Assembly: GCA_944322875.1 (NCBI GenBank) | Contig: CALUQI010000004.1 | Location: 1-41,112 of the forward strand | Origin: Candidatus Gastranaerophilales bacterium | Lineage (GTDB): Bacteria > Cyanobacteriota > Vampirovibrionia > Gastranaerophilales > Gastranaerophilaceae | Direction: 5' to 3' | Length of the DNA: 41,112 bases | Part shown: piece by piece, positions 3,932 through 7,179 of the stretch | How the letters are laid out: every line of letters starts with the position of its first letter | How positions within the stretch are numbered: the stretch's first letter is position 1 | The notes under the pieces: generated by a model | Told to the model about the DNA's origin: nothing | Database searches by the model: none | Seen by the model: only the letters and a program-made list of their open reading frames with translations | Program-made: the position numbers and the translations under genes

Positions 3932-3961
3932 TACGGCGGGCATTGCCCGCCGTAATTTTTT
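3932..3961. terminator. hairpin at the end of the min operon
   Basis: A perfect 10-bp GC-rich inverted repeat (TACGGCGGGC, loop ATT, GCCCGCCGTA; 3932-3954) lies directly against the minE stop codon and is followed on the plus strand by six Ts (3956-3961). On the minus strand the sequence after the hairpin (GTCTTATTC) is only weakly T-rich. It probably ends minCDE transcripts and blocks plus-strand transcription. The T tract also encodes the minE stop. Confidence 0.7.
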
Positions 3962-4559
3962 ATTCTTTCTTTTTCGGATTTTTCTTTTCGCATTCAATGT
4001 CGTCTGAAAGTTCACATTCTCTGCATTCGCCGCAGATTTCTTTATCAGGAAATTTTTTGACCTTTTTTATAGTTTTATCTTTTTCAAGATTGTCTTCTAT
4101 AATATTTTCTTTTATTGAATCTTCAATTATCTCTTCTGATTCCTCTTGTGATTCCTCTCCTGATTTCTCTTGTGATTCCTCTTGTGATTCCTCAGTTGTC
4201 TCTTGTTCTGTAGACTCAAGTTCGGTTTCTTTAGATTCTTCTTCTGCAAGAGCTTTTTCTATTTCTTCTTCGTCTTTTGCTCGAATTACCGGAATAGAAA
4301 GCATTAATGCCATTTGGTCACCCTCTTGTTCAAGATTAAGTTCCAATGCATCTTTATCCATTTCCAGATATTTTGATAAGAGTTCAACAAGTTCGCCACG
4401 CATTTTTTCCAAAAGTTGCGGGGTTAGATTTGTTCTATCTTGCATTAAAACCACTCGTAATCGATTACAAGCAACATCTTTAGCACTTTCCTCTTCCTCG
4501 GCCTGACGGAAAAAACCCAATAATTTGTTATATAATTCTGTGAATATGTTATCTCTCAT
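3960..4559 (-). CDS. minE: cell division topological specificity factor MinE with long acidic, cysteine-ended tail
   Basis: MinE stimulates the MinD ATPase and drives MinCD off the membrane so that Z-rings form at mid-cell. Residues 1-95 are a complete MinE: an amphipathic membrane-binding N-terminus (NIFTELYNKLLGFF), the MinD-contact helix (KDVACNRLRVVLMQDR) and the topological domain up to MLSIPVIRAK. MinE is normally 85-100 residues, but this product has 199. Residues 97-170 are a Glu/Ser-rich low-complexity stretch partly made by a 12-bp tandem repeat, and residues 176-190 form C-x2-C-x2-C-x7-C (C176, C179, C182, C190) before a Lys-rich end. The tail continues in one frame without disruption, so it is probably real. 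Last gene of minCDE, two bases after minD. Tail function unknown; metal binding is a guess. Confidence 0.92.
   Translation of the reverse strand: MRDNIFTELYNKLLGFFRQAEEEESAKDVACNRLRVVLMQDRTNLTPQLLEKMRGELVELLSKYLEMDKDALELNLEQEGDQMALMLSIPVIRAKDEEEIEKALAEEESKETELESTEQETTEESQEESQEKSGEESQEESEEIIEDSIKENIIEDNLEKDKTIKKVKKFPDKEICGECRECELSDDIECEKKNPKKKE
4138..4197 (-). repeat. 12-bp tandem repeat within minE
   Basis: Five consecutive imperfect copies of GATTCCTCTTGT (plus-strand reading) start at 4138, 4150, 4162, 4174 and 4186. On the minus strand they encode Glu-Ser-rich units such as ESQE in the MinE tail. The unit length is a multiple of three, so copy-number changes would keep frame. Confidence 0.85.
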
Positions 4560-4561
4560 TT

Positions 4562-5377
4562 TTATTTCTCCTTAACCATTAGACCTTTGAAAAATTTTTT
4601 TACTTTTGCGACTACACTGGTTTCCTCTTCTAGGTTTATAAACTCAACTTCTTCGCCTAGAATTCTTTTAGCAACGTTTGTATAGGCACGTCCTGCAAGA
4701 GATTTTTCATCGTTTACTATCGGTTCACCTTTGTTTGTTGATGTGATAATGCCCGTATCTTCAGGTATTATGCCAATTAAATCTGCTGAAAGTATTTCTA
4801 CAACATCTTCTACACTCATCATGTCTTTTGATTTTATAAGATTTGGGCGAACTCGGTTTAAAAGCAATCTATATGATTCAATTTCTTCTTTTGCTTCTAA
4901 AAGACCGATAATTCTGTCTGCATCACGTACGGCTGACATTTCCGGAGTCGTTACCACTATGGCTTCGGTTGCACCTGCAACTGCGTTTTGAAATCCTTGT
5001 TCTATTCCAGCAGGACAGTCCACAAGAATATAGTCATAGTCTTCTTTTAGTTTTTCACATATTTCTTTTAATTGTTCTTCCGTTACCGCACTTTTGTCTC
5101 GTGTTTGTGCTGCCGCCAGCAGACATAGATTCGGATTTTTCTTGTCTTTAACAAGTGCTTGCTTGAGTTTACACCTTTCTTCCACTACATCTACTATTGT
5201 GTATACTATTCTGTTTTCTAAGCCCAAAAGCAAGTCTAGGTTCCGAAGACCTAAATCTGTATCTATCATTACAACTTTATTTCCTAATTTTGCGAGGGCT
5301 GTTCCGATATTTGCGCTGGCTGTGGTCTTACCTACACCACCTTTACCGGATGTGATTACGATAACTCTACCGCTCAT
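4562..5377 (-). CDS. minD: septum site-determining ATPase MinD
   Basis: MinD is a membrane-cycling P-loop ATPase that carries MinC to the membrane and oscillates with MinE. The 271-residue protein has the deviant Walker A GKGGVGKTT (residues 11-19), the MIDTDLGLRNLD switch I region and the ILVDCPAGIE Walker B/switch II. Its C-terminus (AKVKKFFKGLM) matches the amphipathic membrane-targeting helix. Length is normal. The start follows TAAGGAG. It lies 10 bases after minC, and its stop codon is part of the SD sequence for minE, so the three genes are one unit. Confidence 0.98.
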   Translation of the reverse strand: MSGRVIVITSGKGGVGKTTASANIGTALAKLGNKVVMIDTDLGLRNLDLLLGLENRIVYTIVDVVEERCKLKQALVKDKKNPNLCLLAAAQTRDKSAVTEEQLKEICEKLKEDYDYILVDCPAGIEQGFQNAVAGATEAIVVTTPEMSAVRDADRIIGLLEAKEEIESYRLLLNRVRPNLIKSKDMMSVEDVVEILSADLIGIIPEDTGIITSTNKGEPIVNDEKSLAGRAYTNVAKRILGEEVEFINLEEETSVVAKVKKFFKGLMVKEK

Positions 5378-5387
5378 GTATTTCTCC

Positions 5388-6215
5388 TTAATTTTCTGTT
5401 AGTTTGTTTATAATTATATTTTTCCTAAATATTCTTGCTTCTTCAGGGGTGAATTCGTTTGTCTTTTGAACAAACGGTGTATTTGCTCCATCGGGTCTTC
5501 TGGCAAAAATATCTGCAATACGCAGTTGAATTGCATTCATTTTCAAGGCGCGGATTCTTGCTTGGGTATTCCCCTCATTGCCCGCGTGTGCTATGCCGCC
5601 TAATATCCCCCATACTGTTATATCGCCTTTTGCAATAATCTCAGATCCAGGGTTAACGTCCCCTACTATAACAAGGTTGCCGTCTGAAGTGATACTTTGT
5701 CCTGAACGGATTGTTTTCTTGAGATATAATGTCGGAAGCTTTTCGGATTCCTTTTTTAACTCCAATGTCGCTTCATCTTCCTCTGTTACCATTTCTTCGG
5801 CTATTTCTAATACTTCCTTTTCGGCTTCTTTTTCCTTTTCAAAATCATTATCGCCGAATATCTTATCTAAAGCATTTTCTACTTCAGGACTTATACTCGT
5901 TGTCATTTCAAAATCAGGGGCTTCTACTATGTTTTCTAATTCAGAAATTTCAATATTTAATGACTTTGCTGAATCAATTGTCTCAGGTGCATTTGTGCTT
6001 ATAAATTCTATTTCGGAATTCATAGACTCAACAAGTGCCTTGATGCTTGTTAATTCTGTTTGCGTAAGAGCTACATTGCCCAATTTTAAACATACCTGTT
6101 TGTTTTGTGCTTCCGGTATGTCAAGTATTCTGGATAATTCATATATTATCTCAGATGTTTTCCTTGCATTGCTCAAGTCAACGATGAATCCGTTTTCTAC
6201 ATATCCCTTGTCCAT
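5388..6215 (-). CDS. minC: septum site-determining protein MinC
   Basis: MinC, recruited by MinD, inhibits FtsZ polymerisation away from mid-cell. The 275-residue product has an N-terminal FtsZ-inhibiting domain (about 1-95), a long Glu-rich linker (about 100-160) and the C-terminal beta-helical domain that dimerises and binds MinD, with IRSGQ and WGILGGIAHAGNEG motifs. The longer frame to 6242 is rejected because GGAAGGA stands five bases before the ATG at 6215. It is the first min gene, 85 bases after the lytic transglycosylase gene; no separate promoter is evident in that gap. Confidence 0.95.
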   Translation of the reverse strand: MDKGYVENGFIVDLSNARKTSEIIYELSRILDIPEAQNKQVCLKLGNVALTQTELTSIKALVESMNSEIEFISTNAPETIDSAKSLNIEISELENIVEAPDFEMTTSISPEVENALDKIFGDNDFEKEKEAEKEVLEIAEEMVTEEDEATLELKKESEKLPTLYLKKTIRSGQSITSDGNLVIVGDVNPGSEIIAKGDITVWGILGGIAHAGNEGNTQARIRALKMNAIQLRIADIFARRPDGANTPFVQKTNEFTPEEARIFRKNIIINKLTEN

Positions 6216-6300
6216 CTTTTTCCTTCCAATCATGGTTAACATTCATGACATTACACGAAAAAGATTTTTACTGCAACGGTATATTTAGATTTGTAATAAA

Positions 6301-7179
6301 TTATTTACTGAAAATTGATTCATCTACTTTTTTATTTTCTATTCTTTTTGATAATTCAGTTTTTGTTATTTTACCGTCTTTATTTATATCCAAACCTTTG
6401 TTTTGTTTGTAGGATAGTCTGCCTTTTTCTGTTAAAACTTCATTCTTCGCATACTTGGGAAGTAATGTTAATGCGTATAAATCCCCGCTGCTTAGTTTTT
6501 GATTACTGCTAAAACCTGCATATTTTTTAACCATTTTGAAATATTTTTCTACGTAGTTAAGTTGTTCTACTGGACTCATTCTTAATAGTTTTTCTGTAGT
6601 TGTACCAAGTTCGTGTGCTGTTTTTGGCATAAATTGTAAAAGACCTGTAGCTCCAGTTTGTCTGTTAACAGCTGTACTTTCGAGTCCTGACTCTGAATTT
6701 AACAGTGCAAGTATGTCTTTATAATTACAATTTATGTTGTTTGCAATTTCTTTAACTCGGTTTAGGAATTCTGGTCCAAGTTTTTTAGAATTGTTCTTTA
6801 TATTGCTATCAGCTGAACTTTTTTGGTTTGAAGGTGTTTTTATTTTTGCGTTATCATCTCCTGCATTTGTTAAGGATGAAGATGAGGGCATTTTTTTATA
6901 ATCTAATGGTTCATTTTGCGGGGTTGATTCAAATCTTCTTGGTTGGGAAAAAATGTTCTTAGGTGTATTTTGAAATGCAAGCGGCATTAATGTAGACATA
7001 AACATTAAGGAAGAAAATAGACCTAATTGTAACCCAGGCATAAACCCTGTTGTAAACGGTACAAAAGGTATAGGAGCAGCTATAAATCCGGGTCTTACCG
7101 GTCTGCAAAAATTGTATGCTGGCACACAATATCTGTTTATTACAAATGGATTATTCATATATCTGAATGATAAATACAT
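6301..7179 (-). CDS. SLT-type lytic transglycosylase with EF-hand loop
   Basis: The product (292 residues) probably cleaves the MurNAc-GlcNAc bond of peptidoglycan. Residues about 138-245 are a transglycosylase SLT domain: catalytic Glu163 in LLNSESGLESTAVN, then GATGLLQFMPKTAHELG. Near the C-terminus residues 264-275 (DINKDGKITKTE) fit the 12-residue EF-hand loop at all calcium-ligand positions, so calcium may control it. The N-terminal 90 residues are Pro/Phe/Met-rich with one hydrophobic stretch (about 47-68) but no standard signal peptide, so export is uncertain. The start follows AAAAGGGG. Its position upstream of minCDE on the same strand suggests co-expression with division genes (inference). 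Confidence 0.85.
   Translation of the reverse strand: MYLSFRYMNNPFVINRYCVPAYNFCRPVRPGFIAAPIPFVPFTTGFMPGLQLGLFSSLMFMSTLMPLAFQNTPKNIFSQPRRFESTPQNEPLDYKKMPSSSSLTNAGDDNAKIKTPSNQKSSADSNIKNNSKKLGPEFLNRVKEIANNINCNYKDILALLNSESGLESTAVNRQTGATGLLQFMPKTAHELGTTTEKLLRMSPVEQLNYVEKYFKMVKKYAGFSSNQKLSSGDLYALTLLPKYAKNEVLTEKGRLSYKQNKGLDINKDGKITKTELSKRIENKKVDESIFSK

Follow-up and report, generated by a model that had tools for sequence, protein, structure and literature searches.

The stretch of DNA analysed here, which we call the window, covers 41,112 nucleotides of a Candidatus Gastranaerophilales genome, and it raises a simple question: what does a MinE protein do with a long acidic tail that ends in four closely spaced cysteines? 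Few pattern-forming proteins have been studied as thoroughly as MinE, which is treated as a two-part unit of roughly 90 residues. A short MinE that ends after its topological specificity domain is typical, though not defining, and this is not what is found in the window, where the single-copy minE ORF (3960..4559, minus strand) encodes 199 aa with a tail of 106 aa. The original prediction had described this protein as twice the normal size, which is right, since the MinE of E. coli has 88 aa (PMC6803595).

The first point to settle is whether this is a genuine MinE, and here the earlier claim of a complete core is borne out. The core (aa 1-93; 4281..4559, minus strand) reaches 66.8 bits with the curated MinE profile TIGR01215 (cut-off 49.3) and 65.1 bits with PF03776 (cut-off 25), the Pfam stretch running over aa 27-91, and it shows the columns that are invariant in 43 relatives. 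The gene lies directly behind minD (4562..5377, minus strand; 271 aa; TIGR01968, 401.9 bits), itself preceded by minC (5388..6242, minus strand; 284 aa, with a C-terminal MinC domain recognised by PF03775), and the minC-minD-minE order of the window is the same in relatives. The genome has one MinE only; a second copy is ruled out, as each genome has one, and so is an assembly artefact, as independently assembled genomes show the same MinE architecture. Immediately before minC, 6301-7179 (also minus strand) encodes a protein that has a lytic transglycosylase (SLT) domain and, C-terminally, an EF-hand/dockerin-like calcium loop. Just downstream of minE, between it and rpsJ, a consensus scan points to a strong 10-bp GC-rich hairpin (3932..3954), the T-run of which is on the plus strand, yet both flanking genes are on the minus strand.

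The tail was expected to be acidic and about 100 residues long, and with its 106 aa, 39% of them D/E, it is. It can be divided into three parts. The first is an acidic linker of about 82 aa (aa 94-175; 4035..4280, minus strand) with a net charge of -21, the sequence of which is not conserved between species: among the 15 MinE of the genus, pairwise identity in the linker is 31%, for lengths of 33-64 aa with the ends trimmed. It contains the 12-bp tandem repeat noticed earlier, which is real (4131..4193, minus strand; 5.2 copies), its units being of the E-E-S-Q type rather than plain Glu/Ser. This repeat was not found in the MinE of 14 congeners, and we read it as incidental and private to this genome; the linker itself would be kept for its length and charge at most. 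The second part is the C-x2-C-x2-C-x7-C motif (aa 176-190; 3990..4034, minus strand; CGECRECELSDDIEC), present at the end of the tail as predicted, with cysteines at aa 176, 179, 182 and 190 and a net charge of -5. The third is a basic C-terminal end, EKKNPKKKE (3963..3989, minus strand), with a net charge of +3 by charge count; this end is net positive in 21/21 motif-bearing genomes.

The four cysteines, in turn, are strictly conserved. A MinE match was found in 15 of the 16 genomes of the window's genus (g1), and all 15 keep the four cysteines within a block, E[IV]CG[DE]C[RN]ECE[LF]SD[DE]I[ED]CEKK, in which the non-Cys residues E, SD, E and K are conserved too. A loss of the cysteines, which would have spoken against the original prediction, did not occur, and a search for normal-length MinE among congeners returned none, all of them being long. 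In a second genus (g18) the four cysteines are present in 6/6 genomes as C-A-E-C-N-E-C-x2-SDDVEC, with a fifth cysteine upstream. Within g1, synonymous sites of the motif are nearly saturated (pS 0.71) and its pN/pS is 0.058, against 0.073 for the core; with the low identity of the linker, this means that selection conserves the motif and not the linker. The exact spacing arose in only 2 of 100,000 shuffles of the window MinE tail. By these comparisons, chance does not account for the four-Cys motif, on which purifying selection acts as strongly as on the core. It is not a mobile module carried by other proteins either: a motif profile search of 59 related genomes gave, above noise, solely the MinE tails of the two genera. 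Neither the tail nor the block has a known domain or sequence match in Pfam, NCBIfam or PDB.

What such a motif could bind is suggested by its spacing, which is identical to that of the structural zinc ligands Cys97/100/103/111 of the medium-chain dehydrogenases (MDR) (PMC9895041). When four cysteines were engineered at this spacing into a xylitol dehydrogenase lacking them, zinc was bound in the crystal structure (PMC9895041). In the window's genome, the spacing scan, done as a DNA pattern, gave 16 matches, and only four ORFs of more than 100 aa have the motif in frame: that of MinE and those of three zinc dehydrogenases. A domain search found ADH_N / ADH_zinc_N in these three ORFs and not in MinE or its tail. 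For full-length MinE, and from an alignment of 43 sequences, AlphaFold predicts the core helices, a helix at aa 97-116 and disorder from about residue 120, the motif having a pLDDT of about 50. For the motif peptide alone, the model is of low confidence as well (mean pLDDT 66.5, at best 75, in the middle), and a PDB fold search with it gave no match. Because a strictly conserved four-Cys motif is spaced like a zinc-binding loop that is already known, the MinE tail is probably metal-bearing; for MinE, this would be a novelty. Metal binding by the cluster, for which the original prediction suggested a test, is backed indirectly, through conservation, through the zinc-dehydrogenase spacing and through the repeated clusters that we describe below in the tails of relatives.

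Our preferred reading, to which we would give about an even chance of being correct, is that the only MinE of this genome, a normal partner of MinD encoded in a minCDE operon, has been extended by a tethered metal-binding tip, a zinc knuckle with a docking or autoregulatory role. From the spacing and the selection on the motif, the four thiolates would bind one Zn(II) tetrahedrally, and the zinc would close the loop into a small rigid knuckle that recalls the structural zinc lobe of the zinc alcohol dehydrogenases. The next two steps are proposed more tentatively. The charged linker may keep the knuckle at a distance from the MinE dimer, which would carry two of them, and the knuckle may serve for docking or autoregulation, tuning how MinE meets MinD, the membrane or some other partner in division. 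This regulatory step is proposed by analogy with SecA, an ATPase whose C-terminal tail consists of a flexible linker and a metal-binding domain that modulates it (PMC6620043). Of the electrostatic tether that the original prediction imagined as changing the oscillation, the tethering suits an acidic, unconserved linker that is predicted to be disordered; an effect on the oscillation, like the sensing of metal or redox state and the binding of a partner that were also suggested there, is hypothetical.

The distribution of tails and cysteines among relatives separates the two features. In the sampled MinE of the family, tails measure roughly 45-180 aa and nearly all are acidic (one sequence, L246, which ends at a contig end, was left out of the length survey). 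The acidic tail requires one state change on a tree of 98 rows built from MinD and the MinE core, and the family (f1) shares this state with f13 and f15, which belong to the order. In the other families of the class, the tails that were read are short or non-acidic and have no cysteine, and the same holds for the sampled MinE of Cyanobacteria proper, with tails of at most 48 aa. Across the sampled genomes, then, the acidic tail characterises the family as a whole and the C-x2-C-x2-C-x7-C motif is specific to two genera. As most genera have an acidic tail without cysteines, the cluster is unnecessary for MinE function in general. Two neighbouring observations concern MinE itself rather than its cysteines. 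In the tails of L014 and L015 (g31), acidic stretches lie on both sides of a long Lys block (HHKKKKRKKKKK-type). MinE has apparently been lost in f6 of the class, with no match in 11/11 sampled genomes, several of them 94-98% complete, and in f14 of the order, with no match in 4/4 sampled genomes, one of them 99% complete; the sister families of both have MinE.

Cysteine clusters, defined as CxC or CxxC in the tail, have a more scattered history. Genera without clusters have tails almost free of cysteine (12 in 7,728 residues). Clusters are found in g1, g18, g36 (CDCGKCEKC), g17 (CxC-rich), g24 and g16/g12, and also in one genome of g21 and one of g28, which amounts to about eight state changes on the tree, at least six of them forced by well-supported branches. 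One origin for all clusters is thus unsupported. For the x7 motif of g1 and g18, a shared origin is not rejected (AU p 0.25), and it is plausible, as the residues between the cysteines are common to both genera. Clusters of other shapes occur in L002, L003 and L004 (g17), in L006, L007, L008 and L196 (g36), and in L257 (g16) and L222 (G083). The most extreme tail, known from a single sampled genome (G023) of g24, belongs to the MinE of L216 (L216:1061-1873, minus strand): it has 177 aa and 30 cysteines, with three tandem repeats of the metallothionein-like form C-x2-C-x-C-x8-C-x2-C-x5-C-x-C, seen in the DNA as a period of 93 bp at 1229-1508.

These data can be read in ways other than a tethered zinc knuckle. 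The four cysteines could form a zinc or thiol-redox sensor, in which metal loading and release, or oxidation, switches MinE so that division-site placement follows the metal or redox state. The repeated changes of state of the clusters in the family are in keeping with this, as would be four cysteines in the reduced state in bacteria that probably live anaerobically in the gut (a lifestyle inferred from relatives); the spacing, however, is that of a tight structural zinc site and not of a switching one, and we consider a sensor unlikely. The conserved block could also work without metal, as a linear interaction motif whose cysteines are in direct contact with a partner or joined in a disulfide. 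Its conserved non-Cys residues would fit such a role, and AlphaFold proposes no confident fold, but four cysteines at exactly the spacing of a zinc site are hard to explain without metal, and a disulfide is not expected in a reducing, anaerobic cytoplasm, which makes metal-free recognition rather improbable.

Metal storage is a further option: the disordered tail of an abundant cytoplasmic protein would be a cheap reservoir of metal or thiols, with MinE as a mere carrier. The 30-Cys tail of L216 and the CxC-rich tails of g17 would fit this, but the motif of the window is a single fixed four-Cys unit with conserved E, SD, E and K, closer to a folded site, and for this motif buffering is quite improbable. 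The same four cysteines, closely spaced in a probably anaerobic host, could be thought to hold an iron-sulfur cluster. The ferredoxin-type 4Fe-4S motif is C-x2-C-x2-C-x3-C, however, and the final x7 of the MinE motif is that of the MDR structural zinc; no Fe-S family appears among the tail matches in Pfam and NCBIfam, so that we give this option very little credit. Ordinary drift, by which acidic tail and cysteines would be low-complexity growth devoid of function, is barely credible in spite of the unconserved, repeat-bearing linker and the commonness of Cys-free tails in the family, as it is contradicted for the motif by its core-like selection at near-saturated synonymous sites, and it may hold for the sequence of the linker.

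The preferred zinc-knuckle reading would add to MinE something that we did not find described: our literature search returned no report on MinE with metal, cysteines or an acidic tail, and nothing relevant on Min in this bacterial class, and a large review of MinCDE mentions neither cysteine nor zinc. A disordered extension shared by a whole family, with convergent and selected Cys clusters, hints at an unexplored regulatory layer on Min. A broader idea, which we hold to be speculative and unlikely, is that the Min oscillator of Gastranaerophilales-type gut bacteria is metal- or redox-responsive, through a zinc tip here and through thiol clusters that evolved repeatedly elsewhere, up to 30 cysteines; if true, division-site selection would be coupled to the metal or redox state through the MinE tail. 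Since purified proteins on membranes suffice to reconstitute Min dynamics, the effects of tail and zinc are directly measurable.

Several known systems help to place this protein. Metallothioneins resemble the MinE of L216, with its 30 Cys over 177 tail residues, in their dense CxC/CxxC repeats, but in L216 the repeats are fused to MinE and have no family match, and the architecture of the window MinE differs. The tail of SecA shares its architecture with the window MinE, that of a regulated ATPase system in which a disordered linker ends in a small metal-binding tip (PMC6620043). SecA is nevertheless a different protein, the ribosome and SecB partners of which have no known counterpart here. 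Its tail also has a Cys pattern that differs from that of the MinE motif. The structural lobe of the zinc medium-chain dehydrogenases, such as alcohol and xylitol dehydrogenase, has the identical Cys spacing, as seen when CGECFFCKKGFINNC, from a dehydrogenase of the same genome, is set against CGECRECELSDDIEC of MinE. Beyond this spacing the resemblance is small: the dehydrogenase lobe lies within a fold, whereas the MinE motif stands at the end of a disordered tail, lacks a dehydrogenase domain and has acidic residues between its cysteines. Since the match is one of spacing, with no dehydrogenase domain and with other residues between the cysteines, the likeness is probably convergent rather than a captured piece of dehydrogenase. 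Finally, with the E. coli-type MinE (TIGR01215 / PF03776), the window MinE shares a complete core, a single copy and a minC-minD-minE operon, and it differs by its 106-aa C-terminal tail of acidic linker, four-Cys motif and basic end. On present comparisons, it is a variant of MinE and not a new system, a lineage-specific and selected extension of a well-known protein.
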